DNA of 64,000 nucleotides from Lentinus brumalis (taxonomy: Eukaryota > Basidiomycota > Agaricomycetes > Polyporales > Polyporaceae). The stretch's first letter is position 1. Each line of letters opens with the position of its first letter. The stretch is taken from assembly GCA_001792895.1 (NCBI GenBank), contig MARA01000008.1:1450008-1514007 (forward strand). The letters run 5' to 3'. Below the pieces are notes generated by a model that saw only the letters and a list, made by a program, of their open reading frames with translations, ran no database searches and was not told the DNA's origin. The translations under genes and the position numbers were made by a program. This document shows, piece after piece, positions 37,657-60,397 of the stretch.

Positions 37657-38903
37657 ATGCGGTACGTCAAAGCGGGTGATATCGGCGATGCCACGCAAGG
37701 CCACATGGATGGTGTCGCCGCCCTGGCGTTCAATCGCAACGGGAACTGTCTCGCATCCGCCGGTTTGGATGCTAAAGTGTGTATTTGGAACGTCAACGAT
37801 GGCCGGCTCCTGCATGTCTTTATTGCGGCCAGCTCTGTTTTATCCCTCGCGTGGTTTGGGGATGGCAACCTGCTCTGCGGGACGACGGATGGGAGCATAT
37901 CGGTGATCACAGTTTCCGCAGTACGTGCCTTCAACATTCCCTACGTGTCGCAACTGACAATATCTCAAGGGCAAGCTGCATGCCACAACATTTCCTCGCA
38001 GTCATAGTTTCCCTGTGGAGCATCTGGGCGTACAGGAGGACAGACTTGTCTCAGGTGCTCACGAAGAAGTCGCAGTGTGGTCGAGGGCTCCGCACGGTAC
38101 CTTCGCCGTCACCTTCCCAGCCATTGGAGCTCACTGCAATGCCTTTGCAGGAATCTGGGAGCACGATCACGATCTTCCGCCTCCGCCGGCGAACTCCAAT
38201 AATCAAGATCGGGACGTTCTGGTCAGTAGCGTGTGTTGGATTCGACCGTCGAGGTTACTCGTGACGTATATGTATCACGGATACATGTAGGTAATGCTTC
38301 CTGCTCCGGGAGCCTGCATCACTCATCGACCGTGCAGAATATATGACGCCAAAGGCTGGCGCCGCGTCCTCACCATTCCATTGAATGGTCTTATGTGAGT
38401 TTGTCGCACCGTGATGCCCATCCCGCCAGCTCATATTTCTCGCCCATCAGCGCACATGCTAGCGTGTCACCAGACGGTAAAAGGTTAGTAGTGTCAAACA
38501 TGACATCTGGCTTCGACATGTACGAAACCGACACGGGCGCGTCGGCTGGAACAATACAACATCCTATCGGGGAGCTGCTGGCCGTCCCGGTCGTATTCGC
38601 TCACGGAGGCAATGTCATCCTCGGAGGGAGTGCGGTGGGCGAAGCTCATTTATGGGATACCACCACGACCGACGTCGTTCAAAGTCTGCCTGTCAAAGGT
38701 ATGACTCCGATGTCGCTCGCGCATCTGTGAGGTACTTACACGAGACAGACTCCCATAGACTTCTTGCGATTGCGGCTTATCAGAAGCCGGCTGGCAAGCG
38801 GTTCCTTATTGCGACCGGGGTCAGCGACCCCGGCGTTCGAGGGGCTATCACGCTATGGTATGCCGAGGAGGATGCTCGAGGGAAGTCGATATATCCCACA
38901 TAG
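37657..38903 (+). CDS. WD40-repeat protein, 3' end cut by the KDZ element
   Basis: Exons 37657-37920, 37970-38286, 38338-38394, about 38438 (or 38453)-38699, and 38750-38903, all phase-compatible. WD40-type blades: GHMDGVAALAFNRNGNCLAS then GLDAKVCIWNVNDGRLL; SVLSLAWFGDGNLLCGTTDG; RLVSGAHEEVAVWSR; HASVSPDGKRLVVSNMTSG; VILGGSAVGEAHLWDTTTTD; RFLIATGVSDPGVRGAITLW. The stop codon TAG (38901-38903) lies inside the mobile element, whose shared sequence starts at 38896, so the last codons and stop are element-derived. Family members usually extend further. The start ATG is the first in frame with the repeats; an upstream exon is possible. Confidence 0.75.
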
Positions 38904-39255
38904 CTCAGTAGATGTGTCCCACCCTAGTGACCCATACAAACTGACAATCGGGCATTGAGGTGGTATGATCGGACCTGATCATATGATGTGTTCTGGCATA
39001 TACATGGGCTGTTCAGGGTCATATTCCAGGTCAATCCGACAGCATTGCTGGGTGGTTTGGCATTCCTTTGGCATGCATTGTGGGTCAGTATACCTGCTGC
39101 TGGTACTGTTCAAGGGGTCAGTGGTAACCTGCACGCATGCCATCCAGGGATAAAGCTGGTGTAACGATCAGGGCTGGTGATCTGGTATGTACAAGCATGT
39201 ATGTGGGGTGATCAAGATGGTCTCACAGGAGGCTCTGACTTGGTGCACACATGGA
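38896..39255. other. Left terminal segment of copy A
   Basis: Non-coding, nearly identical to 60640-60999. The first 20 bases (CACATAGCTCAGTAGATGTG from 38898) form an imperfect palindrome. Contains GTTCTGG/GTTCAGG words. Confidence 0.7.
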
Positions 39256-40795
39256 CGTGGGGTGTTCAGGAGAGTGTTCCGGGGATGTCCCAGCACCATT
39301 CGGACATGGATGTGGGGTGTTCGGGAGAGTGTTCCGGGGATGTCCCAGCACCATTCGGACATGGACGTGGGGTGTTCGGGACAGCATTTCGGGGACGTTC
39401 CAGCACCGTTCGGACACGGACGTGGGGTGTTCGGGACAGCATTTCGGGGACGTTCCAGCACCGTTCGGACACGGACGTGGGGTGTTCGGGACAGCATTTC
39501 GGGGACGTTCCAGCACCGTTCGGACACGGACGTGGGGTGTTCGGGACAGCATTTCGGGGACGTTCCAGCACCGTTCGGACACGGACGTGGGGTGTTCGGG
39601 ACAGCATTTCGGGGACGTTCCAGCACCGTTCGGACACGGACGTGGGGTGTTCGGGACAGCATTTCGGGGACGTTCCAGCACCGTTCGGACACGGACGTGG
39701 GGTGTTCGGGACAGCATTTCGGGGACGTTCCAGCACCGTTCGGACACGGACGTGGGGTGTTCGGGACAGCATTTCGGGGACGTTCCAGCACCGTTCGGAC
39801 ACGGACGTGGGGTGTTCGGGACAGCATTTCGGGGACGTTCCAGCACCGTTCGGACACGGACGTGGGGTGTTCGGGACAGCATTTCGGGGACGTTCCAGCA
39901 CCGTTCGGACACGGACGTGGGGTGTTCGGGACAGCATTTCGGGGACGTTCCAGCACCGTTCGGACACGGACGTGGGGTGTTCGGGACAGCATTTCGGGGA
40001 CGTTCCAGCACCGTTCGGACACGGACGTGGGGTGTTCGGGACAGCATTTCGGGGACGTTCCAGCACCGTTCGGACACGGACGTGGGGTGTTCGGGACAGC
40101 ATTTCGGGGACGTTCCAGCACCGTTCGGACACGGACGTGGGGTGTTCGGGACAGCATTTCGGGGACGTTCCAGCACCATTCGGACATGGACGTGGGGTGT
40201 TCGGGACAGCATTTCGGGGACGTTCCAGCACCGTTCGGACACGGACGTGGGGTGTTCGGGACAGCATTTCGGGGATGTTCCAGCACCGTTCGGACACGGA
40301 CGTGGGGTGTTCGGGACAGCATTTCGGGGACGTTCCAGCACCGTTCGGACACGGACGTGGGGTGTTCGGGACAGCATTTCGGGGACGTTCCAGCACCGTT
40401 CGGACACGGACGTGGGGTGTTCGGGACAGCATTTCGGGGACGTTCCAGCACCGTTCGGACACGGACGTGGGGTGTTCGGGACAGCATTTCGGGGACGTTC
40501 CAGCACCATTCGGACATGGACGTGGGGTGTTCGGGACAGCATTTCGGGGACGTTCCAGCACCGTTCGGACACGGACGTGGGGTGTTCGGGACAGCATTTC
40601 AGGGATGTTCCAGCACCATTCGGACATGGACGTGGGGTGTTCGGGACAGCATTTCGGGGACGTTCCAGCACCGTTCGGACACGGACGTGGGGTGTTCGGG
40701 ACAGCATTTCGGGGACGTTCCAGCACCGTTCGGACATGGACGTGGGGCGTTCGGGACAGCATTTCGGGGACGTTCCAGCACCGTTCGGACATGGA
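39256..40795. repeat. 55-bp satellite, 28 units
   Basis: Unit starts CGTGGGGTGTTCGGGACAGC and continues ATTTCGGGGACGTTCCAGCA then CCGTTCGGACACGGA. Starts fall at 39256 plus multiples of 55 up to 40741. Inner units are identical; the first three and scattered later ones vary at CpG sites. 55 is not divisible by three and the unit has no stop in any frame, so six long false frames of 450-550 codons run through it; they are not genes. Confidence 0.98.
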
Positions 40796-41181
40796 CACTC
40801 GGAAGTGAAGGCCTTGTGTAACATATGCACACATGTCAGGAAACCTGTTTCCCACTATCCCTGCTGTGTGATGCTAGGTGAAGCCATAGAGTGGTAGTGA
40901 TCCTTGAGAGTGATAGAGATCCCCACATCAAACAGAGCTGCCTGTCTCCAGCCTGAACAGCGCTACAGCAGTCCGTGTTGTAATGGTAGGTACAGAACAT
41001 AGTATGAGCAGAGGATGCATGCTCCATGACAAGCTAGAGTGAGGGACATTGTCACCAAGTCATCACTGGCATTGGTTTAGCAAACAGACACATATTGCAA
41101 CATCACATGAGGGATTTTTCAGCCACTACATACACTGGATACAGAAGTGCAGCTACTAGTGCATAATGAAGGCCTTCCACT
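40796..41181. other. Spacer between satellite and first gene
   Basis: Unique sequence shared with copy B (61604-61989). No coding signal. Confidence 0.5.
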
Positions 41182-42227
41182 TCAGGCAGCATCGGGATTC
41201 CAACCCTCTGCAACCCTTTCCAATTGATCATTGTAGATACACCACTTAGCCCAGTCAATTGTCGCGCAATGCATCCTATACCCCTGAGCTGCTTCTAAAG
41301 CCGTCTTCAACGCTCCTCGTTCAACCTGCAGGTATGCCAAGTGACGCGAGCTGTACTGATTCAACAGCGCAGCGCTTTCCAGCACATGAGCCTGCATCGC
41401 TTCTCTATAAGCCGATGAAGATGAATCGGGCTCGGAGGCACGGGGACGAGGGGAGATGAACGATCCGGTGCCACTGGCAGGTGCTGCGGGAGTAATCCAG
41501 CGCCCGGACGTATTGTAGGTGGGGGCTGGGTTGCGAGGGCTGGTGAGCTGGGAGTCAGCGTGCGGTGGGAGCACCTGGGACGAACGGGGGAATGCGGGCG
41601 AATGCGCCTGATCGGGCGATCGGGCCTCGTCGGGCGAACGGGCTTGATCGGGCGAACGGGCTTGATCGGGCGAATGTGCGTGGTCGGGCGAATGTGCGTG
41701 GTCATGCGGAGCTCGTGGCGTCGGGGTGCTACCAGATACCAGCCGTGGGCTTTCAGCAAGCGGGCGAGCTTCGTTCATCGGGCTGATTGTCCCTCCACGG
41801 ATGGGAGAGAGAGGCGACGGGGAGCTGGGGACGTCCTCCTCCATTGAGATAGGGTGCCACAGAGGTGAAATATCGGGGCGGGGAGGAGTTGCCACAGTAG
41901 TAATGGGAGAAAGCGGCCCCTCGTCGGAAATCAACATTTGACCCATAATAGGCGATATTGCCATGCGGTCGTCCCCAGACCCATCCGCATCTGGCGAGCC
42001 AAGCGTGAACGGACTGGGACAGGACCGTGCTGCAGCAAGAAGCTGTTCAGAACATTCCATGAATTCAGGTACAGGGTATACTCACCCGAAGATTCCTCCT
42101 GCGCGTCGATGCTTGCCATACGAGCATCACCCGATTCGTCCAGGGCGAGACCGAGTGGTGAAAGAGAACGGGTTTCTGCAGAGGGGCGTGCACGAGACAG
42201 CCTCGGCTTTTTCGATCGTCTGGCCAT
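41182..42227 (-). CDS. Ser-Pro-rich element protein
   Basis: Unknown function. Starts MARRSKKPRLSRARPSAETR (basic, nuclear-like), followed by a Ser/Pro-rich region with SPDQ/SPDH/SPDE repeats (ARSPDQARSPDEARSPDQAH) and a C-terminal helical part (HVLESAALLNQYSSRHLAYL, then HCATIDWAKWCIYNDQLERV). One intron is expected near 42048-42098: in copy B the donor is TCG|GTGAGT, phase 0, and joins cleanly to CAG|CTTCTTGCT, whereas copy A has one extra C that puts the join out of frame. So the A copy may be frameshifted here, or misassembled. First gene inside the element, transcribed toward the satellite. Confidence 0.65.
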
Positions 42228-42639
42228 GCGCCCGGTGTGCCGCTAATAGGATTGATGTGAGTATTCAGGACGGCACTGGTGTGCTCACTCGCAGGAACTT
42301 ACCGGGGATCAATGGGCTCCCAGTTCTCCAACTTGGGGATGAGAACACAGCGACTGTGGAAGAGCTATGTCGCAACTAGCAGAGCTGGGTACGAGGCCGG
42401 CGGAGATGTGAGACAATACCGGGAGCCGTGTGGAGACGAGTCGATCGTGGTCGACGAGTGAGGATGCAGTGGGTACAACCCACCCGAACACAGGACCACG
42501 TGATGGTGAACTCAGACGTCGGGCGACATGCGCTGGCGCCCGAGCGGCTTGACTTGCTCATTCCTTGTTCGCTCATCGCTCTCTCGACTCTTGAGAACTC
42601 TCTGCCGTCTGACTAGCTTTATTATTGCTTCGCTTTGAT

Positions 42640-45399
42640 ATGTCAACGCCGCCAACCATGGACATCAAGACCCTCCTCACCAAAATCCGGGAAGCAACGG
42701 ATCTAATTCAGTCGGGCTGGCTGGCTCGACCTCCCATAGGGCACCCCCGTCGTTTGACGTGGCAGCGCTGCTGCCGCGAAGAGATTCGGAAGCTCAAGGA
42801 GCTTATGCGCGCCGTCAAGGAACCTCTCCCCGTCCCACCCCTCGTCCTTGCCCTGCTCGTGGAGCACGCTCGGGCGGTCTCGGCCAACGAAAAGGACTAC
42901 AACTACGAGGCCCTGAACCCGGACAACTCGATTGACAAGGCGGGCGCGTACTTTACGAGGGATGACACGTACAAGGTTCGGGTGAAGAAAAGCGGATGGT
43001 GGACGGACTTAGGTGCGTGGAACACAGCTGTGCTACCGATTCCGTCGCTAACCACGGATCCTCTACTCATGAAGGAGGAAACCCGAAGCCGTGTGCAGCT
43101 GCTACGGATGGGCGTCGGGCGAATGAAGAAGACCCGTCCGCCGTCCGCAAGGACAATCATGCGCCCGGATCCCGCAAAGCCGCCCCCAGCGAGCGCGAAG
43201 CCGGTTCGGCTGCCTCAGAGCGCAAGCCAGTACTCTCCGCCAACCAAACGGACAGTCGCAGGACAACCCGGGCGCGGGCTCGCGCTCAAGCAGAACCAGA
43301 AGCCGCCCTCCCGCCCGACATGCACGCGCCACCTGCAGCTCAGCGACCTACCCCCAAACCTGCTCCTCGTACCCAATCCAAGGCACCTCCAGAGAGCTCT
43401 GCCGCTGGCTCGAGGGATGTCTCGCTCACCCCCTCACCTGCGGCGCAAGACGAGGGGGTCTGGGACCCTGCGTCCAAGCAGATTGCTGACGCGTGGTTGA
43501 TCTCGGTGCGTCAACATAATTTTGGTTGTGTATGCTAATGCTCACGCAACTTTATGAAGCCCAAGAAGTGCAAGAAATGCCATGCGGCAGGTCATACGTG
43601 CCGCGTGAACCTGGTCCATGGCGTCGCATGCAACCGATGCACAAACTCGAGCGTCGGTTGCAGCTTTGCCGCCAAGCAGCCCCCGAGCGGCCCCAAGTGG
43701 ACGTATGATCAGCGACGCTGGATCCTGGTTCATTGGGCCCGGAACGCGCAGGCTAATACGTCCTACCCATCGGAGGTGCCTGCAAAGTTCCCTCTTGACT
43801 TCGCACCACCAGCTTGGTTCGTCGATGAGCTGCAGGCAGCCCGTGGCAAGGACACAGAGACCACGAAGAAGCGAAGCAAACGCCCTCGAGCTGATTCTCC
43901 CGTTGGGCAGAAGCGTCGCCCCGTCGTCGCGCCGACCACGGACTCGGGCGAAGACAGTTCGAGCGTGAAGGCGGCCACCCCGGTCAGGCGCAAGCGGTCG
44001 AAGCGGTCAAAGAGCAAATCAATCAACGTCCACCTCGACAGCGATGATGGAGATGTTGAGGACCGCGGCAGCGACGATGACAGGGTGGAAGGCCTGGCTG
44101 ACCTTCGCCCGATAAAGCGTGCTCGGACCGACTCTCGGGCGAGCAGTGCAGTGCCGCATTCGCGGGGTGAGTCCGATCCATTCGAGGAGATGTAGGATAT
44201 TGACTGACTGACTAGTACGATGGAAACAATTACGCAACATAGAGCACATGCTGCGCGACGGCCCGGCTACCTCGGCGGCATCCATCACACGGCACATCAC
44301 TACAGGGCTCTCGAGTGCCGCCGAAGAGTATGCACCCGACTTCGACCACCTGCTGGAGCCCATGGTTGGGCATCACCCGCACTCCTTCGTCCCTCCCTTG
44401 GCCCGCCCCACCCCATCGTTTGCGGCCATCAGTCCAACCAGCGCTGGTCCTCAATTGGTCAACAGAATCAACGTGAACAACGCAGCGTTTGAGTCTGGGC
44501 TGGCGGCTCTGTGGGAGGCGGTTCGTCGCCAGCAGTTTGCGCATGCCAGCTTCCAGGAGGAGGCCCGCCGGGAGCTTATGGAGCTGAAGAGTTCGCTTTC
44601 CGCGGCTTCCTTGGCTTCGGTTTCAGTCGCTCATGAGCGCGACACCCTTCGTCAAGAATCGGACGAGAAGGCGGCCGAGATCAAACGGCTCCGATCCCAA
44701 GTCCTAGCCCTGCAGGCCCGCCTGGACGCTGCAAATGTTCCCGGCCCCACTCCTTTTGCCATGGCGGACGTGGCACATGCGGGGGCCGCGCAGCTTGTCC
44801 CGGTGGATGCCCCCAAGCCTACTGCCCTCGCACTCGCGCCACTGCTGCTGGCCAGGGATTACCCGGATCTCCACGGCGCGAAATGCAGCGCGGATGCAGC
44901 GCCATACGACCATGTGGTCGTCCCCGTATCTCATCCCTCCCAGGCCGTGGATGACCCCGCCGCTACACTGCTCATGGAGGATGAGGATCAAGCAGGCTGT
45001 CCGCCCAGCAGAGCGGCGTCCCATGGAGATCAGTCACCGTCGGGCGATCAAGACGAGCCGATGCCCGACAGCGAGGAGAATCCACCGGCAGTCGAATCGA
45101 CCACGGTGTTGTACGGGGCCTCGGGCGCATCTCGGTCCCGGGATGCCATGCGTAATACCAGCTCACCTCCGATATCCTCCAGGCCATCGTCGCCGTGCCT
45201 TCTGCCCGCGCAATGTGACGGGTTCCGTGAGCTCTCGGCATACGCGTCGTCGACCGAGAGCACGAAGTCAGTGCGTGGCTTACGCGCACTGTCGCGAGAG
45301 CCGCACAGCGACACCGCCGCGGGCGAAGAGCCGATTGCATTGATGGAGACGACGGGCGAACAGCCAGCCACTGAGGAGGGCGAGTTGGTGGAGACATAG
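42640..45399 (+). CDS. Cysteine-cluster and coiled-coil element protein
   Basis: 864 residues from exons 42640-43012, 43075-43505, 43560-44166 and 44216-45399, all in phase. N-terminal helical domain (IKTLLTKIREATDLIQSGWL, WQRCCREEIRKLKELMRAV) with KSGWWTDL. Exon 3 begins with CKKCHAAGHTCRVN..., a CX2CX6CX9CX2CX6C cluster, the spacing of fungal Zn2Cys6 DNA-binding domains, though it lies mid-protein. Basic segments follow (KKRSKRPR, RRKRSKRSKSKS) with an acidic stretch (DSDDGDVEDRGSDDD). The C-terminal part has a coiled coil (EARRELMELKSS, EIKRLRSQVLALQARLDAA) and Ser/Pro-rich tail. Probably a DNA-binding nuclear protein carried by the element; role is inferred. Alternative start at 42658. 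Confidence 0.75.
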
Positions 45400-45934
45400 A
45401 GAGCCGGCAGTAGCACACGGACTCCGGGTTGTGTCCCCGCATATAGTGTATATGTTGTGTACCGCAATAGCATTCATTGGTGACGGCTTGCGTCGTAAAA
45501 TGCTGCATCTGTGTCAGGTCCGCCCGCCAGTGCTTCGCCCGCCAATGCTTCGCCCGAAGGCCATTCTCCCGAACGTCCTCCGCCCGATGGACACCCGCCC
45601 GATAGACACCCGCCCGAGAGGCACGACCGCCCGAAAAGCACACATCGGACGTATTCTGTTCCAACCGCTTCCCGCAGGTGCCATTCAGACCAATCAATAG
45701 TCATTCAGGTCAGGGAAATACACAGAGACTAAGGACAGGATGCGAGAGGGAGGGCTGCGGATACAGGGCAAGGAACATAGTAATCATAGGTAGTAGAGGC
45801 GGCCGCATGCTGCGACCAGGAGCTGCTTAGTTCGTATGCGGATCGGGCGAATATCATAACTAGACTGTGTGACGACCGTACAGCGGGGTATATCGACGTA
45901 AGAGGTCGGCACACATACCTCGGGCCTTCCGCGC
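45400..45934. other. Spacer between convergent genes, rich in CGCCCGA
   Basis: Non-coding gap between the plus gene ending at 45399 and the minus gene ending at 45935. 45520-45640 holds about eight CGCCCGA/TCGCCCG words with irregular spacing, so the motif is not limited to coding DNA. Confidence 0.6.
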
Positions 45935-48900
45935 CTACTTCTTACGTGACGACCTTCGCAGCACCCGGGCGGGCGGGGAATCAATGACTTGGGGTACGGC
46001 CTCCGCCTCCTCCTCGTCTTCATGCTCTGGTTGGGGTGGCCGACCTGACCGGCGGCCTCGGGGTGTCTGCGCGGGGGTGGAATTGCGTGTGGAAGGGACG
46101 GGGAGCTCGACGTAACACCGGGGGAGCGCATGAGAGGGGTTGCGAGCGGAGGCCTGGGTGCGAGTTGACCCGACGTTCCCCGTCACCGCCATCTCTACCT
46201 CGTCGCGGAGGTTGTTGCGCGAGCAGCCAGGGCCTTGCCTTTCCCTGGGTTCCGCCCCCCGAACTTGCCCGCTCGAATGCCCGGCGGAGCGCCTCGCTTC
46301 CCCATGATGCGAGCCTCCTTACGGCTGAGAGGCACTGTTGACGCAGACCCGTGAGCAACGCGTGGGCCGGTGGACTTCGCTGCGGACCCGGCTGGGATCC
46401 CAGGGTGCTGGGAGGTGCTGCAGAGAGGAAGAATTAGCTCGGCTGCGTCGCGCAGGAGCGACTGCGAGGCGCGTAGGTATTCTGGTCCCCCGCCTGGGAT
46501 ATCGTCGTGGCTGTCCGGTTCGATGTCGTTCGCGGTATAGATGTCCCGCAATGCCAGCCCGACGATCAGGGTCCACTGCTGGACGTCCGAGGCTGACGAC
46601 GTAGGCGTAGGTGCATTGTCGGAGACCCACTCCATGACCGAGCCCCAACGCTCCCTCGTTGCGTGGAAATGGCTGGGAATTCCCCAACAATCAGAGTCCC
46701 AATTCGCCCAGCGGCTGACCTTCGGGTCGCGCAGGTGCGAACGACGACGAAGCTACACGCTATGAATGAGCATCACATATCAAAAAAAAAAAGGGGGTTA
46801 GCTCACCATGTGTCGCCAGGACGTCAAGTAGTCCCGGTACGATGCTTCGCCGGAGAGTGACCACAGGTAAGGAATTATCCGTTCCGGGTCACTCTCGACC
46901 CAGCTGGGAGGATTCCCGGTAGCAGAGACCAGGATCACTTGCCGAGGAGGGATACGACCGGTCCCAAGGCCATGACGCCCGACCGGGGCATCATCCCAGG
47001 GGCCGGGGATGTGAGGCAGGGGATCAGGTCCGGGCGTGTCCTCGGGCATTGGCTCGGGCGAGTGGTCGGGCAGAGACCCGGGCGGATTGCCACCGGCCGC
47101 TTTCTTCACGGGCCTCGGCTTCGGCTTGGGCTTCTTCGGGCCAACGGTCGGCTTCGGCTTGCTTGGGCCAGCGGTCGGCTTGCCGTGGGCATCGAGCCCG
47201 TTGTTGGGTGCGGTAGGAGACACGTCAGGGTCAGAGACGTTGAGGTCGAAGGTCTCCTCATCGGGGCTGTCAGGCGATTGGTTGCGCAGCTTCTCGTCGA
47301 TGTCCTCGCCCGCTTCGGACCCCGCTCCTGAAGACTTCGCAGACGCCGAGTCATCAGCTGCCTTCGCCCTGCCCTTCCCCTTGTCCTTGGGAGCCGCGTT
47401 GTCCTTGACATTGCTGGGATCTTGCTGGCGGGCGTGTCTCCCCTTGGACTTGGTCCTCTTCTTCTTCCGACCCTGCGCCTTGGCCGCCCCGTCGTCCTCC
47501 GCGGTCGAACCCCCCTCGTCGGTGCCGGTGCCGTCCTCACTGCGCTTGTTCAGACCGAACGCGCCGGGAGGTGGGGCGCGCTTCGTCCGTGCGGCGTGAC
47601 CCTTGCGCTTCGCCTCAGCGATATGCTTCGGGCGCGGAGGCTTCCCGTACGCAGCCTTGAGTCGTTCGCCCGCATCCTCGCCCTTCCCAACTCGCTTCCA
47701 CCAGTGCGTCCAATGGAACCGCTCATCGGAGGTCTCCGCCGACGTCTGCAGGTCGAGAATGTGCTGCCACAGCTCCTTGACGCAGCCGACCGCCATGCGC
47801 ATCGGGTTCTGGAAAACGAGTTCTTCCGGTAAGGCGTCGGGCGGAAGATAACGGGCGGTGTCCTTGGCCACAGCCTTCCAGGCGACAGGTTCGTCCTTGA
47901 TACCGGACGCAGCTTCTGCTGTGAGGGTCAGACGGTATACGCACAGGTAGCAATATCGGGACGCACCCCAATGCAACGAGAAGTAAGTGTGCAGGACGAC
48001 ACTCAGCACCTTGCCGTACCGGAATAGGTCCATCGAAGGCAGGACGGGCGTACCGTCCGGAAAGAATGTGAACTCGTGGGGAGGGAGTGTTGGTCGTGGG
48101 GCGTCCGGGTCGTTGTCGTGCTCGTCAGGGTGGAAGCACGCATGGCAGTACTCCTGCCAAGTGCGTTTCGGGTTCTTGACTCGCCACTGCTCGAACGTCG
48201 GGACCTGTCGGTTCCCAGCGTGCCAGATCATGCTCACATCGTGTCTGAAAGAGCCGTAGTGTCAGCTCGAGCGAGTACGTGGTACGGCATAGTGAACACG
48301 CACACCCCGTGGACCATGTCCTCCTTCTTGTCGAGGACGCAGAACTCGATCCGCGCCATGGCTCCGCACTGGTCGTTGACCCAGAGAACGATGGCCTGAA
48401 TCCAGTCGGCCAGTCGTTTCTCGGCGATTCTAGACGAGCGATGAGGTCAGATATAAGGCGGTTGAGCATAGGCAGCAACTCACAGGGCGCGCAGCTCGGG
48501 GTCGGGCCCGTTCTCAATCCACTGCTCGGCCTTTTCATCGTACGCCGCCTGGTCGTCGTCGCTCAGTTCGTTCCAGAGCTCGGATCGGGCGATGTTCAGG
48601 GCGGCGATTGGAACCTTGCCCGCCTCGACGAGCTCTGCCTTGCGGAGAAGGATTGCCTGGTCCTCCTCGAGGTTGAAGACGTCCCGTCCTGTCCAGAGAC
48701 ACTTGAGTGCCTTCGGGAGGCGAGAGTCCTTGTTGCCGGAATGGTTGGAGAGCCACAGGGTGAGTTTCTGAAGAGTGTGGGTGAGCGTTGTTGCTCGCGC
48801 GTAGTTGCAATGTACGTTGAACTCAGCACTTACGCCTCTCAGATATCCGCGAGCCCAGGGGTTTTTCGGAGGCAGCTGGCGGCCCTCGAGGAACTCGGTG

Positions 48901-49049
48901 ATGAGCGACTCCTTCAGGGCCGACTTCTCCTTTTTCGACTTCTTGGGCCAGGTCTCGGTGACACCACGGAGTCGGTCTATCTCGCGCGGATGGAGGGCGA
49001 TTTCTGAGTCGTCGGTACCGTCGAAGTCGGGAGGAATAGGAACAGCCAT
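45935..49049 (-). CDS. Large HMG-like element protein
   Basis: Start MAVPIPPDFDGTDDSEIAL at 49047-49049; stop at 45935. Phase-consistent early junctions join YLRG to KLTLWLSNHSGNKDS, ELRAL to IAEKRLADWIQ, and DMVHGV to HDVSMIWHAGN. The segment ALNIARSELWNELSDDDQAA followed by YDEKAEQW resembles an HMG box C-terminal helix. A folded middle part (YGKVLSVVLHTYFSLHW, ELWQHILDLQ, FHWTHWWKRVGKGEDAGERL) precedes a long Lys/Pro/Ser-rich disordered region (KPTVGPKKPKPKPRPVKKA), WVESDPERIIPYLWSL, and a basic C-terminus ending RRSSRKK. Probably nuclear and DNA-binding. Genes encoding HMG-type proteins are known companions of fungal KDZ transposons. Exons after 46800 are only roughly placed. Confidence 0.65.
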
Positions 49050-49517
49050 GTGTGGCGAGGAGCGATGTGATAACACTTTGAGTTGAGTAGTAGCACTGAG
49101 TAGTACACGATGTGGACTAAGCGGGGACAAAGCTCGCGGCGCAGACGTGTATATATAGCATCGATGCCAGAATCAATTATTGTGACAATCTATGTAGTCG
49201 TCCATGTCGAGGATATTGACATCAATGCGTCGCAGTGTAGCCGGGATAACCTCGCGGTGTCCTCGAGCGTTCGTGATCGCCTTTGGACCTCCTTTGGAGC
49301 AGCACGGAAATCTACGAGGGCGCAAACCTTCGACAGTAAGTTTAATCACCACATAGTTCGGGGAGAGCACTTACGCTGTAGGAATGACCAGAACGGAACA
49401 GCATGTACTTGGCATGAGGAGGCCACGAGGTGCGCGCTATGCAGCATGCGGCGCGCCTGCGATTTGTACGTCTTCGAACCTCCTTCGTAACTTGTTCCCT
49501 GCGATCTGCGTCTCTCC
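49050..49517. promoter_or_regulatory. Divergent promoter of HMG-like and TET/JBP genes
   Basis: 468 bp between divergent starts. TATATATAG at 49150-49158 is a possible TATA element, about 100 bp upstream of the minus-strand start. Shared regulation is inferred from the geometry only. Confidence 0.4.
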
Positions 49518-50823
49518 ATGGCGCCAGACCCGCTGCACTCGACCTCGTCACACTGGGACTTCGTTGACGAGGTCTCAGAACGCTTGGTCCTGCTCTTCCA
49601 TTCTGTGCGTGCTGGCGAGAAGGCATGGATGGCTTCCCAGCGTCTGTCAAATGGCCGCCAGAATGCGTGGTCTGCGCAGCTGGACCAGGACCTCATACGA
49701 GCTGCAAAGGTGCTAGCTTCTGCATGGAGCTTTAGAGGTAAGTACGTTTTCTAATTACCCACTGCACAACACCCACCAGAATCAGTCCCATTGGACTGGG
49801 ATGCAGACGCCTTGTGCGCATTCATGTCGAAGAAGCCGCGAGGGCTCAATATGGAATACGAAGACTCCCTTCTTGAGAGTTTTCCGCCCTTTTGCGGCGT
49901 GGAGAGCGTCCTGTCCAACGACATCCCCATTCTCATGCGACCTGGGATTATCATCGATAATACTGGCAAGGTACTCGCCTGGGCCCTTCCACAGATTCTT
50001 TCTGAGACTCGGCAGGTGTGTGTTAATACGTATACCATGCAACAATTAAGCTTACATTGATGTGCAGCACGATATACTCAAAGCGACAACCTGCCTGAAG
50101 CATGAGCTACACACCGTAGGGAATCTTCCCGAGGCAGGCGCGAACCCCCTACTCCGGTGGCGTGTGGCCCCAACGTTCTATCACCCAGGTCAGCAGTGGC
50201 CGCCGGAAACTGGCTAGCTACTCCTGGAGGGTATGCGCTCGGACACAAGGTTGGTACACCCCGGCATCTGCACGATCGTCGACCCACTGAATGGCGTATA
50301 GAGCTCACGCTTCGCGCCTTGTCCAAGTCGCACTCTCCGATCCCCTGCGGGCCAGGAATGGGGTCGAAGGATGAAAGAATCCGGCGCCCTTCTAAGTGCG
50401 ATTCTTCGGGTCGTCCACCCGGCGATGTACGATGCAGGAAAGATGTCGCTGTCCCGTATCTCCGCCGACCCTTCCATCGCCGCAGCCCTGGATACGTGGC
50501 CTACCGTCTTCAATCACGTTCAGATCATCAGCAATCGTGCAACACCATTTCATCGTGACACCAGCGGCGCACCGCCGTGGTATGACATGCTCATGACGCT
50601 TGGGGCGTACCGTCGCGCTGAGCTCGTCTTGAGGAACCTTGGCATCCAGATAGGGTACAAGCCGGGCACGATCTCGCCCATATGCAGCCTCATCCTTCAT
50701 CATGGGGTAGGCAAGGTTCGCGGGGACAGACTTTGCTACTCATGGTACATGTCTGAAGCCGTACATCGCAACTTCGACATCCCTGATATATCCTACATGC
50801 GCGCTGACTACTACCCAAACTAG
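49518..50823 (+). CDS. TET/JBP-family 2OG-Fe(II) dioxygenase
   Basis: Predicted 5-methylcytosine oxidase. Exons 49518-49737, 49780-50015, 50069 to about 50190, a short piece to 50250, and 50302-50823. N-terminal part: DWDADALCAFMSKKPRGLN, ILMRPGIIIDNTGKVLAWAL, PQILSETRQ, the family's pre-core region. Catalytic core: SGALLSAILRVVHPAMYDAG, WPTVFNHVQIISNRATPF, then HRD (50551-50559; the Fe-binding HxD), WYDMLMTLGAYR, IQIGYKPGTISP, LHHGV (distal His about 50698-50703) and GDRLCYSWYM with the 2-oxoglutarate-binding Arg (50728-50730). All expected metal and cosubstrate residues are present. Between about 50190 and 50230 the frame changes (YHPG... to ...NWLATPGGYALGHK); this needs a 29-bp intron or one missing base. 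Lies between the HMG-like and KDZ genes of the same element. Confidence 0.88.
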
Positions 50824-51023
50824 AGCACACAATGTAAATGGGAATGGAATCATACCTATTGCATATACGTTTACCTCTCGCTACCGGCCGACGGCGCGTT
50901 TCCTCGATGCACGGACGTGAACCAGTGAGTGCCGGGTGCCTCTCTATGCGGTACATAAGGACTCTGCGGCGATGGGCTACAGTGCACTCGATCATCAAGG
51001 CTCCGGCCGCCAGGGTACAGCAA

Positions 51024-54000
51024 TGACTGGCTCGCGTATTCGTCTATCCACCTACAGCTCAGCGGCAGAGAGAGAAATTGTCACGGTGAAAACCCGCCGG
51101 GGCCCTCGGGCGATCCTACGACCGGCACGACCGCGCAAAACCCACCCGAGCGATGCCGCCCCGCCCCGCATCCAGCCCGTAGGTTTCAATAGACCCAACG
51201 GCTCAACGCTCCCGATGGACGACCTTGCTGGCACCCAGTTCACATTCACGGCTGGAACTCCGGTGAAAGCGCGCATGGTGAGTGTTCCAGCATGATGTCG
51301 CCGTCGCTCCTATCCCTCAGCATCGGGGTGCCTCGCAGCGACCCAACGATTATCAGCGTGAGTGGATGCGCAGCCAGCGGGATGTCTATCTCCGCGAGCT
51401 GTACGACATGGAGGCGGGCGCCGACAAGGCAATATGTCGGTGTGGCAAGGCTGCCTTATGGCGATGCCTTGGGTGCATCGGAAGTTTGCCAATATGTGCT
51501 CAGTGTCTCCGCGATTCTCATCGCTTACTCCCCTTCCATCGGGTTGAGTTCTGGGCGGGGACGTTCTGGAGAGCAGCATGGCTGCGTACCGTCGACGTGC
51601 AGGTCCATTTGGGTCATGGTGGCGCTCCTTGTTCATATCTCAGAGACGTCTCCAGCCACCCGCCCGGGAGCGAACGCACCACTACAACCGCGGCGACATC
51701 GACAAACACCGACCCCATACCCCAACGTTTTGCGGACCCCGGACGACCCATCATTCCCCTCCCGACCCACCTCCCACTTCCTCGTGTATCCCTTCAAACA
51801 AGGCCACGACTCCGTCGGACACAGAGCGCCCCGCAGCTGTCTCCATGGTTCTCGAATCAGACATGGGTAAGAGCTGTGGCTAGACCAAGGGAACTACCAT
51901 TCACACTGTGTTCTAGCCGCAAGCCTCTACCACGAGCACACAAGGGGACACCGACCGCCCGAAGCGGGCGAAGCAGTCGCCCGAAGGCAATCCGCCCGAC
52001 GGTCTGCGCCCGCTCGCACCGCGCGTTCGCCCGGAGGGAACCCCGGCCGAACTCGCAAGCGCACGAGTACCGCACTCGGGCACTCCTCGCCCGTTCAAGC
52101 GCACGGCAGCCGAGGCGGACCTAGACCAATTGGAGCAAGAAGAGAGCGCACACGAGCCATCGCCAGACCTGAGAACAGCAGACGATGAAGAGGAAGAAGT
52201 CGACGAAGTCGCGGAAGACGAAGACGACATTGTCGAACCCACCCGATTTGACGTTGAGGCTGATGACGCATCTGACATGCCGCGGGTAGGGGAGGAGGTG
52301 CTCGAGCCCTTCCAGACGCGGAGCGCACCGGAGTATCGCAAGCCCCGGCATGGATCGACCCTGATGATGGTAATAGTTGATACGAGCGGTGTTCATGAGC
52401 TTCCAGTTGTGTTCTGCGGCTGCCCCAATGCGCCCACCCGCGACATTCAGCTGCTGCGCATGGGACTCTACCCTGCGACGTCGCGCCGCCCACAGACAGC
52501 ATTCACATTCCGGCTCCTCGACGACCACCTGCTCACGAATAAAGAATGCAAGATTCCTGCACTCTCGTATTACAGCCGGCTTCGGCGGATAACCAGCGAG
52601 ACCTTCCCCACATGGTGCCGGTGAGTTCCATTCAGGTTAGTGCAACCACCCGACACCACTTACGTTCGACGCCCTCAGGATCGTTACCGCGATCTTCTAC
52701 GTGTCTCAAGACAGTGGAGGAATCTGCGAGCCCGTAGGCAGGCGGGAATTGGGTACCCCGGAGTCCCTGCACCTGGCCCAGGCACATTTGCTATCAGATG
52801 CCCGGCATGCCCGTGGCCGGGCATCAACATGCGTCCAGGATGGGAGACTGACGCCGACAGGTGATATCCGGGCGGACACCAACGAACTAGCAGAGCGGTA
52901 TTGATGGCTGCTTTTACAGGTGGGCTCACGCGGCATCGATAATCATGGACGGTAACTTCGGGGCTCAACACATGAAGATGAAGAACCCCGAGGACGATGT
53001 TCGCTTTGCAGATGGGCACGGATACATGGTTACTGACGACCCGTACAAGGAGCACCTTACGACTGCCTGCAAGCCGAAGCGGCAGGTAATGTATTCCAGC
53101 ATTGATACTCAAGGATCCTCACTGACGTGCATCCCTGCAGAAACTCGAATGCAACGAGCACCGTGCGGTCATCGGTGCGGCATCCGGGCGAGCACCGCTC
53201 GAGGCCACCGGCATTGGTGCTGCCTGCTGCAGTCGGCACGGGTTCTTCTATCCCCACTGTGTCGTCGACTTTCAGAAGGGTGAACAGTGAGTCAGGGAGC
53301 AAGGCACCCAATCTCACCCGACTGACGCACGCTCTTGCAGGCAGAAGAACATGGACTACTGTCTATATCAAGTAACCGTCTTCTTGCACGGTATTCTGCT
53401 CCTTCTGGTCCTATACGATGTCTGGTGCTACTATTACAAACATCTCCTCTGGCGATTCGACCAAAGCCCGGCACTCTCGCTCCCTCCTAATCTCACAATC
53501 ACTGGGGGCATCGGCCAGTTCCATGTCCATGCCCATCGCGCGGAGTGTTACCCTAGATTCTCACCCGTCTTTATCCCGGGTGCAGGGCAGCTGTTGATTG
53601 AGTTCATTGAGCCCTTGTGGATAGAGACCAACGAGGTCGCCGGGAGCACGCGCGGGATGTCCACGGCCCATCGTCAAGAGTTTCTGGACGACCACATGAA
53701 CGACTCTAATTGGTATAAGATGACACGCCTCGGTCAGTATGGCGATATATGATTTACACGCCCGCCTCTGAACCCTCGTTTAGCTGTGGCGCTCTCCCGA
53801 AAGTGGGTCACGGCATGCACCAAGGTTGGACCCGCTATAGACGCCTTCGACGACCTCACCAAGAATACACCGCAGGACAAGGTCACTGTATGGACGCAGG
53901 CCGCTGAAAGTGCTGCCCTTGAACGGCACAACGACTACGACGTCATGGCTATCTATGACGTGCAGAGCGCGAAACGTATGTCGCACAATTTCATCCACCC

Positions 54001-55315
54001 GAACCATCTCTGATGCGGTTACTTGCTTGACCGACCGCAGTTCCAACGCTGCAGCAAATACAGCTGGAGCTCGTCCAAGCGGAGAACACACGGCACGGGG
54101 CGCAAATGGGCGTTGCTGCGTGGATTGTGTCCGGCCTCAAGCTCGAGGAGTCGAAGTAAGTGGTTCAGACTAGTGCGAGGCGTTATCCGGCGTTGACGGA
54201 ACCCCAGGCTCGGACTTGCTGCAAAGGCCCGGTCAGTGCTACCCTCGAGCCCCGTAGCCGACAGGCTCGCGCTAGAGCAAATGCGGAGCAAGCTGTTCAA
54301 GGATATCGAACGGTTCCACAAGCAGTCTCGGGCGTTTCTGACCGCAAACGCCCTGAGCGCATTCTTCAACATCACCAGGGACGCATCAACGCTCGGCTCT
54401 GAGTGGGATGAGCATATACTACCTCGCGAGGACAACCCAGATGGCGACGATGTTCCAGTCGTGCCGGAGCGAGCGAGACTCTTCCTCCCATCCACCCTTG
54501 GCGCTCGGGCCTGTCGGACCTCTGGGATAAGCAAGCTGCTCGAAGCTGAGCGGCAGTTGCGCGTCGGGCAGATGAACGATGCTCTACATGCCGTTCGGGT
54601 CGGTATCGGCTACAAGTCCTTTCTCTACCGGACGTCTGTGCGTACCGCCAACTCCCAGACGAAGAAACTCCGCAGCTTTGATGACGTCCAGACCGCTGAT
54701 GCTGGAATTCTTTCGAACGCGCGGGTGTACGAGACGGCGCGCGCCTCGCTCCTGCAACTCTACGATCTGTCCGACCCCGAAGACGCTGAGGAGCTAGAGC
54801 GTACGACCGGCCGGTTTCGCCCGTTGCTACGTAGCGATTTAACGGTCAACACAGCGATCATCGAAAGTACCACTCGTGGCCTCAGCAATCTGCACCTGCC
54901 GTGGTTTTGGTACCTAGATGGTGGGTCAACTGCTACCGACGGATCTTGGACCGACGAAAGTAAGAATGAGTTGTCGTTGTCTCGTGGGGCTTTCATATTT
55001 GACCTTACTGCTGCAGTGTACAGGGTGGTATGGCTTCGAGGATACGCAAGAAAACTGCGATGGGAAGAGGAGGTGGTCCTCGTCTATCTAGAAATGCTCC
55101 GGATGGAAGAGGCTCTGGAGCGCACTACACAGGTCTGGGAGAACCGAGGAAGGGGCGATGTAGACGCAGGGTATGCGTCGTGGGCTGAACGGCAGGCGCA
55201 CCTCTGGAGGTCTTTGCGCTCGCACGCAGCCGGACTATTCAAGCGCATGCGGGCTTCGCATCACCCTCAATGCACATCTGCCATCATATCCCGCAACATC
55301 CCCGAGTTGTCTTAA
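51024..55315 (+). CDS. KDZ-family transposase with CxC2-type cysteine cluster
   Basis: DNA transposase of the Kyakuja-Dileera-Zisupton class. Exons: 51024-51277, 51339-51865, 51917 to about 52614, 52679-52860, 52920-53085, 53141-53286, 53341-53732, 53784-53970 and 54042-55315 (last ones approximate). N-terminal cluster: CRCGKAALWRCLGC, CAQC, LLPFHRVEFW, LGHGGAPC, the CxC2 arrangement. Then FCGCPNAPTRDIQLLRMGLY, ALSYYSRLRRITSETF, DRYRDLLRVSRQWRNL; the catalytic fold with MDGNFGAQHMKMKNPEDDVR, FADGHGYMV, LEATGIGAACCSRHG, YDVWCYYYKHLLWRF, GIGQFHVHAHRAECY, IEPLWIETNEVAGSTRGMS, HMNDSNWYKM; and C-terminal AAVYRVVWLRGYARKLRWEE. The E-box, usually QDGEII, reads QLLIEFIEPLW here. At about 52605 one more C in CCCC would restore the usual TFPHMVP and a phase-0 splice, so a frame break is present. 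Confidence 0.9.
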
Positions 55316-55575: not shown

Positions 55576-56782
55576 ATGCACAAACCCGCTGCATTGGAAC
55601 TGCGCTACACCGCCCACCGGATTGCAGAGGCTCTCCGGCACTACCCCGAAGATGCGGACGAGACGATGCAGGCTCGATGGGAGCATGGACTGGCGCGGGA
55701 GATGGTGAGTTACTCCCCCTACCCAACGGCTTCTGCGCCGACGATTGATCTATATACTAGTGGACCGTGACGGGTGCCATGGGAATAATGGTCGTGCATT
55801 CCCTCAGCAGGCCGGATGAGGCCTCAACCGATGACATCCCGTCCCTTTTCCACCGCCTTCTCCCGCAGATCGAATGGGATGGCATGAAGATCAACATCGA
55901 TATGTCGACGCTCGACCGCGCTGCCATCATTGCCGCTTCAGACACATCGTATGAGTTCTCCGAAGGCTCCGAAGGGTGTTTCACTGGCTTTGAGTGGTGG
56001 ACGTGGCCCTCCCTTTCCGGCGACACCCACGACTTTCCATACTGGTGGAGGTCGCCCACACGTTGCGTGGTGAGTCACAATTTACTTCAGGCGTTTTGCT
56101 GCGTTCTCGCTTGACATCAGCAACGGTGCTCCAGCGGCGGCCCATGCAAGTCTATGGCATGGATGCAATCCCAGCGTGTACGCACGCTGAAGAGATAGCC
56201 GCCATCTGCCGCAACCAAATCGACTTCACGAACGACGAAATTGATCGAGAGAGAGTGACTCGGGCCCATCTTGAGCAGGTCCTCGGTCACGGGCTGAACA
56301 CGATCATGCAGGATGCAGGCACTCAGGACACCGGGTCACATATCACGGAGAAGTCCGTGCGCTTTGCGTCAATGCCAGAGGGCGACGAGAGTGTCAGGGG
56401 TGTCCGGACCCAGCCGGACGTCCAGCCGCAACGTTCAGGTGGTAGCTCAGTGGACGCGGATGATCATCGGTCATCAGGCGGATCTTCGGGCGAACAGTCG
56501 GACGAGCGGTCGGGCAAGGAGCAGTCAAGCAACACGAGGTCGGGCGGACGGTCGGGCGGACGGACGGGCGGACGGACGGGCGGACGGGCGGGCGGACGGG
56601 CGGGCGGACGGCGGGCGGACGGGCGGGCGGACGGTCGGGCGAGACATTGGGCGAGACATCGGGCGGCGGACGTTCGGGTCATGCCCCGGGAGAGGAGGGG
56701 CCCAGGGGCGGCGTGGCAAGCGCAAAGTTACGGGGCAGCCCTGAAACCGTTCTTCTGTGCTGTACGTAGTATCAGTCAGTGA
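55576..56782 (+). CDS. Element-borne hypothetical protein with RSGG tail
   Basis: Not recognised. Exons 55576-55704, 55761-56069 and 56135-56782 fit in phase. Reads MHKPAALELRYTAHRIAEAL, DADETMQARWEHGLAREM, then MGIMVVHSLSRPDEASTDDI and FTGFEWWTWPSLSGD, followed by VYGMDAIPACTHAEEIAAIC and a helical segment (DEIDRERVTRAHLEQVLGHG). The C-terminus is Ser/Gly-rich and runs into a GGGCGGAC minisatellite encoding GRSGGRTGGRTGG, after which the frame choice is arbitrary. Last gene of the element, downstream of the transposase on the same strand. Confidence 0.6.
56535..56690. repeat. GGGCGGAC minisatellite
   Basis: About 12 units of 8-12 bp (GGTCGGGCGGACGG, GACGGGCGG), GC-rich, within the 3' end of the preceding gene. 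Several units contain TCGGGCG. Confidence 0.85.
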
Positions 56783-56999
56783 GTGTCCTGTTATTCCATA
56801 TCAGATTGTGTTGTTGGACCCATTTGGAGTGAATATCTCTATTATGTGCTCTCATCATGCTCGCCCAACTGTCATAGACATCAGAAATCTGCATGGTCAG
56901 CTCTGAAACCACAATGCTTGGTACAAGGTAGACATAGATATAGCCTACTTGCAGTAGATAGTACCATCAAGGCTCAACTATATGGACCACTGGAGTAGG
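56783..56999. other. Spacer before the right-hand array
   Basis: AT-rich, no feature seen. Confidence 0.4.
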
Positions 57000-59165
57000 T
57001 TATACTAAGTACTCGCAAGTGTGGTCTGAAGAATGTAAGCAATACACTACTCAGGGGACGGTGACATGGACCACCTCTCCATTATATACATAAGCCTGAC
57101 ATGAACAGGGAAACTGTATAGTCATTATTATGAAGGGAACAGGTTCGGCCACAATGTACAGAGCCATGGCATGAACAGGCTATCACCTATGGCTATCAGT
57201 GTGACATGAACGGGATATGTGAGCAGGTCATTATAGTACCTCGAACAAGACATCACTCAGACGCTGTCTTGGTGTGGTGAACGGGGCCCTGATGTCGCCA
57301 AGAGACGTGATGTGAACGGACTATACCATATGCTCATTCTGGAGACAGGAACAAGCGAGGTGGCATGGCTTTTGGAGTGTCACGAACGGGACACACAGCA
57401 TGGTCATTCCAGTGACATGAACAGGAACGGCAATATAGGCATCTGCCCATAATGATAAGTGCATTCCCGCTGCTCACACACACCATTACCTATTGTGGAG
57501 TTGCAACCTAGAGTTGAGCCAGGAAGTACCAACATTGTTGAAATCAGGACTTCCTGCTGATATGAGCCCTGCTACTAAGGGACATGGGGTGCATATATTG
57601 AGAGGGGCCTGTTATTATGCCACCAGCTAGGGAGAAGACGAACATGTACGCATGCAGTTTGTGCTCTGGTTGTGCGAACAAGATATTTATGTAGTCACTG
57701 TGATTAAGGGAACAGAGGCCTCCACATTGCCCACAGACATGGCATGTACGGGCCATGCTCTATAGTCACGAGCATGACTCGAACAGGATATATTGCTTAA
57801 TCATTGAAGTGACTCGAACAGAGCACCACCTAGAGGCAGCATCAGTGAGGGGAACGGTGCATGATATATAGCCATTCTAGTAACCTGAACACAGAGGTAC
57901 CCAATATCTAGTATGGTGGAAGGAACGAGGCACACTGAGTTAGCACAAATGTAATATGATCAAGGCGTGGTATAGCTATTATAGTGAGTTGATCAGAAAG
58001 AGGCTGAATTCCCAGGTGTGTTGCCCGAACGGAGATACATGTGGTGGTCATTCAGGAGGATCGAACGGAGGTCCTACGATCAACACTGCAGTGATATGAA
58101 CAGGAGATCACTTGGATTTTGCTGGAAGCCACCAGAGGCAAACAGTGTTGGTAAGGACATGAGCAGTAAATTCTAGGACTTTACTGAAAGTTGCCATCAT
58201 TGAGATGTCTTCACAAGAGCCGTATGATAAGGACCCAAGCATCACTCATAGATGTGGAGTGAACAGTAGATATAATTCAGGACGACAGTGATCTGAACAA
58301 AGCATACATGATTATCCCATGGTGCTGCTCGGAACAAGAACCTCATTGTTGTCACTGCAGTTATGTGAACAGACCGTCACTTGTGCCATTACACTGATGT
58401 GAACGGAACACATCACATTCATGACAATTGTGATGTGAACAGAGCCCATCGCTGTAATCACTTATGTGCTGTGAACGGAACACATTGCTGTAAACACTAT
58501 TGTAATGCGAACGGGTTTCCCAAGGATGCTCACGGAGGTGGAAGGATCAGCTCCGATCACATTGGGCAGATTGGTGATGTGAACGGGAACACCACCCGGA
58601 GGGGCATCTTTGCAGGATGCCTTCATCGAGAGCACAACATAACTCATAACAAGTGTGATCATCGCTGTAATCACTTATGTGCTGTGAACGGAACACATTG
58701 CTGTAAACACTATTGTAATGCGAACGGGTTTCCCAAGGATGCTCACGGAGGTGGAAGGATCAGCTCCGATCACATTGGGCAGATTGGTGATGTGAACGGG
58801 AACACCACCCGGAGGGGCATCTTTGCAGGATGCCTGCATTGAGAGCACACATAACAGTGGTCATCTCCGGGTACAAACACTAGGAATAGGAACAGATAAC
58901 AGTTTGCACATGCATTACGTTGTGTGTTGCAGTACAGTACTCTGAACACCCCGTATATATGAGCACTACAGTGCTGCGTACACATGACCAGAGGTCATCA
59001 CTGGGGCCATGCGAACAGCTACCAAGAAGGATCCCCTGAATGTGACATGAACAGGTCATGAAATATGAGAACTACACTGATATGATCATCTACAACATTG
59101 TACCCATACCAGTGAGGTGAACATACACAATGTAGTTCACACTCTGGTGATGTGAACGGCCAAGA
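57000..59165. repeat. 35-bp degenerate array, about 60 units
   Basis: The word GAAC (in GTGAYRTGAACRGR) recurs every 34-36 bp. GAAC starts at 57103, 57137, 57173, 57208, 57243, 57279, 57314, 57349, 57384, 57419, then later 57781, 57816, 57852, 57887, 57923 and again 59013, 59049, 59119, 59154 (59084 reads GATC). The bases between are poorly conserved. Two subtypes dominate, GAACGG and GAACAG. The array has no coding potential. Confidence 0.88.
58447..58852. repeat. 223-bp duplication within the 35-bp array
   Basis: 58447-58669 and 58670-58852 are almost identical (CATCGCTGTAATCACTTATG through TTTGCAGGATGCC). 223 is not a multiple of 35 but each copy carries the same set of GAAC words. A recent local duplication. 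Confidence 0.95.
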
Positions 59166-59464
59166 TACTTACCTATGCCAGCAACAACAAGCAGGCCACA
59201 GCAGATTGAAAATAGCAAACAGCTAAGCCGTTCCAATCCTGAGACGTCCTTGCACCAGCTCACAAAGGCACAAATGATTCGTGTAGCTGTGTGTTGTCTT
59301 GACTGGTCCAGCCTCAATGATAAATACCTCCGAGTTCTATGCTCAAGTTATAAGAGATGATGGTACACCACCCTAGCAGCGGGCTTGTGCATGCTCCTTT
59401 TCATATGGTCGCAGGAGGAGCATTACAAGATAACCAACTCTGATCCGGACTCAGGGCCGGAATC
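59166..59464. other. Unclassified, right part of the element
   Basis: No repeat period and no gene recognised. Confidence 0.35.
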
Positions 59465-59958
59465 ACACAGTGCAGCACTCACCGGCCAAGGCTCGCTATT
59501 CTGGTAGGTGGGAGACTGGCTGGCTATAGGCTGGACAACCGCCAGCAAGCAAGCTCTGCTCGGATGTCTCTCAAGCTGGACACTTACCCCAAGTCCGAAG
59601 GCTGGGGCCAAGCTATTAGGATGACAATATCATTGCACCAACCTATTGGCCATCTAAAGGCTGAGCTCGATGACACTAGGTAGTTGCCGCCTACCACAGG
59701 TGGGCTGACCTACACAGTGCAGCACTCACCGGCCAAGGCTCGCTATTCTGGTAGGTGGGAGACTGGCTGGCTATAGGCTGGACAACTGCCAGCAAGCAAG
59801 CTCTGCTCGGATGTCTCTCAAGCTGGACACTTACCCCAAGTCCGAAGGCTGGGGCCAAGCTATTATGATGACAATATCATTGCACCAACCTATTGGCCAT
59901 CTAAAGGCTGAGCTCGATGACACTAGGTAGTTGCTATCTACCACAGGTAGGCTGACCT
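59465..59958. repeat. Tandem duplication, two 247-bp units
   Basis: 59465-59711 and 59712-59958, both starting ACACAGTGCAGCACTCACCG and ending GGCTGACCT. Few differences, including CAACCGCC versus CAACTGCC (a CpG transition). Confidence 0.95.
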
Positions 59959-60365
59959 ACACTGGTATGATCCAGCTCTGTACAGGCAGGGGAGCGCAAG
60001 ATGAACCTCACTAAAGAGTCCAGGAGGCACTCCCCATAGCCCAGTATATACCATGCTCATAGATGATCCTACATCAGTAGCGCCCCAGGGGTGCCCTGCA
60101 GTCAAGGATCATGGATACCCATGTGTGGGATCTATGCCGTTCATGTCACCACCATATATATAGTAGACTCTGTGTTCAGGCCACTAAGATGCTGTGATGT
60201 GGTATTCTTGTTCACTGTACATTTATGAGAGGATCAGGATGGCTGAACAGGTTTGTTTCAGTCACCTTGGAGGAGATTAGTCAGTCTGTATGGGATACTA
60301 TCATGGGGTAGTATACTGAGTGGGTTGTACGACCTCCTTGGTATGTCACTAAAACACATGTCACA
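59959..60365. other. Probable right terminal region of copy A
   Basis: AT-rich, non-coding. The true end of the element is probably within or just after this stretch; no perfect inverted match to the left terminus was found. Confidence 0.35.
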
Positions 60366-60397
60366 TTGGCACGTTTGGAAAGCGGCGACCCCGGCAG

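Follow-up and report, generated by a model that had tools for sequence, protein, structure and literature searches.

A probable Kyakuja-type DNA transposon carrying a TET/JBP dioxygenase gene and co-inherited accessory genes in Lentinus brumalis

Introduction

Does the TET/JBP dioxygenase gene that lies beside a KDZ transposase gene in the polypore Lentinus brumalis belong to a mobile element, of what kind is that element, and does the dioxygenase serve it? In this study, we have explored a stretch of 64,000 nucleotides (hereafter the window; assembly GCA_001792895.1, contig MARA01000008.1, positions 1,450,008 to 1,514,007 of the forward strand), which is the right end of a contig that we call C115 in an assembly of 53.4 Mb and 136 contigs. 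An earlier note on this DNA had proposed a composite transposon at 38,896..60,365 whose cargo edits 5-methylcytosine (5mC) to control its own movement or silencing. Those boundaries were nearly right, the left edge being 1 bp and the right edge 38 bp off. Our results point to a large, recently active cut-and-paste DNA transposon of the Kyakuja type (KDZ) at 38,897-60,327, with a TET/JBP gene and several co-inherited accessory genes, a reading to which we give a probability of about 0.87.

One mobile unit with TET/JBP and KDZ genes

The alignment of copies and relatives gives the element termini of 5'-CA ... TG-3'. From left to right, the element consists of a CpG-poor end, an array of 55-bp period, gene 1 (minus strand), gene 2 (plus), an HMG-like gene (minus), the TET/JBP gene (plus), the KDZ/CxC2 gene (plus), gene 5 (plus) and a right part.

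38,897-60,327, plus strand: whole element, 21,431 bp, 5'-CACATAG...GAGTGGGTTG-3', with ends common to copies and relatives
38,890-38,896, plus strand: left 7-mer TATATCC, matched as a target duplication by the right flank on contig C111
49,518-50,823, plus strand: TET/JBP dioxygenase gene (Pfam match, CcTET alignment)
51,023-55,315, plus strand: KDZ transposase gene with CxC2 cluster (Pfam; approximate splice model)

The two main genes had been recognized by the earlier note, and profile searches agree with it: Tet_JBP matches 50,302-50,820 with 54.3 bits (Pfam cut-off 34.9), KDZ matches 53,291-53,749 with 93.8 bits (cut-off 26.6) and CxC2 matches 51,917-52,621 with 84.6 bits (cut-off 27). The HRD motif (codons at 50,551-50,559), distal His and Arg that the note had read in the TET core align with those of CcTET from Coprinopsis cinerea in structures 8jkk and 7vpn (E 7e-20 and 8.2e-20), and the predicted protein has the residues of an AG-type TET/JBP enzyme (HxD, distal His, Arg). 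These catalytic residues are retained in five relatives; a named relative is from Polyporus arcularius (47% identity), and the named protein matches of the element are all from Polyporaceae. The window protein, distant from CcTET in sequence (E 7e-20), also shares Gly and Asp at CcTET positions 331 and 337, numbered by PDB chain; Gly331/Asp337 are tied to activity on 6-methyladenine (6mA) (PMC12730594). In the KDZ core, candidate D, D and E residues align with an intact KDZ protein (L009) from the same genome, from which we infer that they would be the catalytic residues of the transposase.

That both genes sit on one mobile unit, as had been proposed, is upheld by two related elements on contig C65, which have the same gene order and common ends. 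They occupy 7,775-26,398 (18.6 kb) and, on the minus strand, 49,449-29,508 (19.9 kb); their first 139-140 bp are 81-83% identical to those of the window element, and both of these complete relatives (2/2) are flanked by perfect 7-bp target duplications, CGCCTCT and GGCTCCG. The label Kyakuja-type was assigned from the domains, the 7-bp target duplication and the CA..TG termini, and five features of a TET-bearing (TET+) Kyakuja were found: a KDZ domain, a CxC cluster before the core, a TET/JBP gene inside the element, a 7-bp target duplication and CA..TG ends.

Two other classes were rejected. For a Zisupton, an 8-bp target duplication would be expected; the C65 relatives have 7 bp, and their eighth bases differ. 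A composite transposon, the class given by the earlier note, needs a complete mobile element at each end; each unit here has one transposase and one pair of ends, as in a single Kyakuja-type element.

Near-identical copies and the second unit

The earlier note had named, as the outcome that would speak against it, KDZ copies always lacking the TET gene. All five near-identical KDZ copies listed (C115, C111, C83 twice and C53) carry it, the pair in the copy C83b being split by a nested 15-kb insert. Five places share an identical 522-bp TET exon. Counted over aligned stretches outside the 55-bp array and a short CGGG repeat, substitutions relative to the window unit number 0 (C83a), 3 (C111), 5 (C53) and 6 (C83b), with scattered single-base indels in addition, and the spread was therefore recent; C83a, one of the five places, may represent the locus of the window a second time.

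C83b was later interrupted in its HMG-like and KDZ genes by two related elements (L028-L031; C83:22753-35561 and 39159-54246), 12.8 and 15.1 kb long. They are flanked by CCGG and GCGC, have direct repeats of about 1 kb at their ends and look like gypsy-like long terminal repeat retrotransposons, their large frame resembling a gypsy-type pol by eye. Contig C22 (L057, C22:18968-22265) repeats the right end of the element and the C83 flank at 99.9%, with no TET, KDZ or HMG-like gene among the matches listed, and may be a haplotype, a duplication or a deleted copy.

The flanks of the window family comprise three distinct left 7-mers (TATATCC, ACCGCGC, GCGCGGT) and three right ones (TATATCC, TACGACC, GACGGGC), of which 1/9 pairings matches: TATATCC, on the left at C115 and on the right at C111. 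When these two flanks are joined, the reading frame of a WD40 gene resumes (WD40 Pfam 45.2 bits). Full-length copies with target duplications, which the earlier note had led one to look for, are thus found in the two C65 relatives; in the window family they come down to this single pairing, split over two contigs. Each of the contigs C115, C111 and C53 has an end within a window-family copy, and chimeric joins are possible for this reason.

60,328-60,640: spacer to the next copy, 313 bp, present only on C115 and C83
60,641-64,000, plus strand: first part of a second copy, which the contig end truncates

We see an even chance that the tandem at 60,641 arose when identical copies were misjoined in the assembly, in which case the window unit would have its true right flank on C111. 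The TATATCC match and the resumed frame at C111 argue for such a misjoin, as do the breaks of contigs within identical copies and tandem flanks that have no duplication partner. Against it, C83 has the same spacer and both units: it matches the window over 18.1 kb at 99.93%, with 0 substitutions in 14.4 kb of unit 1, 0 in 3.4 kb of unit 2 and single-base gaps only, so that C115 and C83 are probably one locus. Furthermore, the C111 copy departs from the window unit by its 3 substitutions, and a genuine tandem, or a second haplotype, would account for the data as well.

A conserved gene unit across the genome

A genome scan returned 29 Tet_JBP matches, 20 of them marked as over the cut-off. At 17 of the 29, a KDZ match follows on the same strand, +2.6 to +3.2 kb downstream. 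The HMG-like gene lies in divergent orientation, at -1.6 to -2.5 kb, beside 19, which are these 17 and two more with no KDZ match in range (C16, at a contig end, and C83b, with its 15-kb insert). The other 10 matches have neither gene; they are C97 (45.4 bits) and nine at no more than 34.7 bits. For 10/29 TET matches, a gene 2 homologue precedes on the same strand, at -7.8 to -11.1 kb. At C1, C81 and C51 (one TET family), a gene 2 homologue occurs on the opposite strand, roughly 10 kb downstream from TET, C1 having one upstream as well. Gene 5 follows at +4.8 to +7.2 kb in 15 of the 20 TET matches tested, and farther away at C83b (+20.5 kb) and C97 (+12.1 kb); within the same 20 it is missing at C115:6084 and C16, both at contig ends, and at C79. 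Two of the 19 gene 5 matches (C65:3949 and C134) are downstream of no TET match.

Both C65 elements have all six genes in the order and orientation of the window, and the order, spacing and orientation of TET, KDZ, the HMG-like gene and gene 5 persist down to about 27-34% protein identity. The genome also has 159 listed KDZ pieces, most of them without a nearby TET match.

41,182-42,081, minus strand: gene 1, proline-rich open reading frame, 299 aa
42,640-45,399, plus strand: gene 2, with a conserved N-terminus, a Cys cluster seen by eye and a coiled-coil-like stretch (approximate splice model)
46,195-49,049, minus strand: HMG-like gene, divergent from TET, Pfam match below threshold (approximate splice model)
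55,761-56,111, plus strand: gene 5, small conserved frame, 117 aa, with homologues downstream of other TET genes

The splice models of gene 2, the HMG-like gene and KDZ are approximate, and the predictor was run with higher penalties because lower ones over-called introns. Gene 1 has homologues in the window family and in the two C65 elements, and none was found elsewhere. Gene 2 has a relative in Cerioporus squamosus (44% identity), and a structural model of its N-terminus (mean predicted local distance difference test score, pLDDT, 65.5) had no PDB match at E <= 0.001.

The earlier note had counted several nuclear-type proteins here; the accessory genes are present, and the wording 'nuclear-type' fares less well. 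The HMG-box match of 46,195-49,049 is below the Pfam threshold (E 0.03 and 0.072), and none of three scanned homologues (P0003, P0004, P0006) has an HMG match, so 'HMG-like' is a weak label. A model of the Lentinus homologue, from which an HMG fold might have been read, had a mean pLDDT of 33 and was not used. Relatives of this protein are found in Lentinus brumalis (62% identity) and Cerioporus squamosus (52%); the Cerioporus homologues of the HMG-like gene and of gene 2 are both listed with the same longest contig (81,754 bases), which suggests one locus. A stretch of 22 residues in the HMG-like frame is missing from the homologues and is probably an unspliced intron.

Element ends, arrays and CpG content

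38,897-39,248, plus strand: left terminal end, 352 bp, CpG observed/expected ratio (o/e) 0.23
39,249-40,796, plus strand: subterminal 55-bp array, 28.1 copies
56,701-60,327, plus strand: right end region, about 3.6 kb, CpG o/e 0.30-0.56, holding the 213- and 247-bp duplications
58,447-58,855 and 59,465-59,962: right-end duplications of 213 bp and 247 bp, inside the element

The element had been described as lying between two satellite arrays. Instead, it contains the 55-bp array near its left end and the 213- and 247-bp duplications near its right end, and an array at 60,993 is part of the second copy that starts at 60,641. A 55-bp period is also found in both C65 elements, whose arrays lie 331-333 bp from the left end, where the window has 352 bp. 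Between themselves, the C65 units are related (score 32.5 vs 12.5 for shuffled sequence). The window unit has no significant similarity to them, its scores of 11.5 and 9.5 not exceeding the shuffle maxima of 11.5 and 15.0, so window and C65 arrays share period and place only; this comparison left out the second window array, which yielded only 2 units. The window array departs from its consensus 30 times; 19 of these changes are C>T or G>A at CpG columns, which make up 14 of the 55 columns, and 2 are at other G/C columns. They fit past CpG methylation, with the reservation that the units share a history and the events are not independent.

The gene core, intergenic promoters included, has a CpG o/e of 0.93-1.23 (1.23 in the 468-bp divergent region between HMG-like gene and TET; 0.82 in pooled introns), and the ends of the window element are depleted, at 0.14-0.56. 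The ends of the C65 relatives are depleted too (0.25-0.36), which does not extend to the stretch following their arrays (0.84 and 0.96). The nested retrotransposons of C83b have values of 0.95-1.26.

Elsewhere in the window, an AT-richer block at 16,000-28,500 (CpG 0.31, TpG 1.42, CpA 1.46), with related repeats nearby (13,333-13,852, 20,437-20,958 and 23,377-23,734), fits CpG decay of old repeats. At 34,569-35,272, a 15-bp repeat in 47 copies lies within a 547-aa frame rich in REQAQ repeats. Host genes include those for a SUN-domain (Sad1_UNC) protein (36,442-37,836) and an L7Ae-type ribosomal protein (9,393-10,139).

Discussion

If the element is indeed a TET-bearing Kyakuja, its KDZ transposase would act on the shared ends and insert it with a 7-bp target duplication, and the TET enzyme would lift host silencing by oxidising 5mC, and perhaps 6mA, in the DNA of the element. 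The HMG-like and Cys-cluster proteins would bind DNA or chromatin, for which the subterminal array might offer a binding platform.

Several observations weigh against this account. The element ends show a weak, imperfect inverted similarity in roughly their first 50 bp, and Kyakuja are reported to be without terminal inverted repeats. Two of the three distinct left flanks and two of the three right flanks of the window family are unmatched, and the uninterrupted WD40 site is absent from the assembly, where the joined site matches only its two halves, each once. The third exon of the window TET is one base off frame relative to five relatives; C83b differs from the window copy at this site by a single-base indel, and since the copies differ mostly by such indels an assembly error is likely. 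The frames of single copies are accordingly uncertain, single-base indels touching both this exon and the CxC2 exon. As for silencing relief, KDZ loci without TET are equally CpG-intact in 8/8 examined (domain 0.96-1.26).

This last observation bears directly on the earlier suggestion that the cargo edits 5mC for self-control, for which CpG content gives no sign. We had considered protection of CpG by TET as the origin of the contrast between core and ends; because TET-less KDZ loci and the nested retrotransposons are also intact, the contrast is no evidence of TET action. It could reflect age, selection or composition.

An alternative, possible and in our view rather unlikely, is that the TET gene is a passive passenger, which moves with the transposon and is useless to it, or serves the host. 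The many KDZ matches without a nearby TET, from which it follows that TET is unneeded for KDZ spread, and the CpG-intact coding DNA of TET-less loci are what such a passenger would lead one to expect. It accords poorly with the order, spacing and orientation of TET, KDZ, HMG-like gene and gene 5, kept across families to about 27-34% identity, and with the catalytic residues kept in five relatives.

At the other extreme, we may speculate that in polypores the TET-bearing Kyakuja form conserved units of five to six genes. The upstream Cys-cluster protein, the HMG-like protein and the small downstream protein would then work with TET and the transposase on ends that are CpG-poor and were once methylated, and on a 55-bp array that evolves fast but keeps its period, and demethylation of the ends would license transposition; we consider this extended model improbable as it stands. 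Less probable still is that the 21-kb unit never transposed and is a segmental or tandem repeat, the copy at 60,641 being the next array unit, for, although C115 and C83 each show two successive units 313 bp apart and several copies lie at contig ends, copies are dispersed with differing flanks and the C65 relatives carry perfect 7-bp duplications.

The preferred reading, a Kyakuja-type transposon, places the element among known systems. A 2014 PNAS paper by Iyer and colleagues is said to have first described the linkage of TET/JBP with KDZ, together with a divergent HMG protein carried by such elements. The association of the two families, given as known in the earlier note, also matches TET+ Kyakuja transposons (KDZ) of Agaricomycetes, which share with the window element a KDZ transposase with a cysteine cluster, TET/JBP, 7-bp duplications and CA..TG ends, and are described as having no terminal inverted repeats, where the window element has its imperfect inverted end similarity (Kojima 2025, PMC12730594). 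In the same paper, escape from methylation-based silencing is already proposed for them. No mention of gene 2, gene 5 or the 55-bp arrays was seen in the portions of the published accounts searched, which did not include the 2014 description and supplements. KDZ1-KDZ3 of Cryptococcus neoformans are likewise mobile, with a KDZ transposase and a cysteine cluster, but are of about 9-11 kb, with 139-241-bp terminal inverted repeats, CxC1 and target duplications of 8 bp (KDZ1) or 4-8 bp (PMC12810828). Intact KDZ elements of Pleurotus ostreatus are likewise preceded by a CxC2 cluster, and the passages searched hold no TET or target duplication data for them (PMC7641404).

In conclusion, the core of this finding, TET and KDZ on one transposon, is already known, and the window element is a large, recently mobile further example. 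With transposons that carry their own methylcytosine oxidase, one can ask whether mobile DNA is able to reverse the silencing imposed by its host. Near-identical copies with defined ends, together with TET-less KDZ controls in one genome, make this question testable, and the co-inherited accessory genes, now named, can be removed singly.

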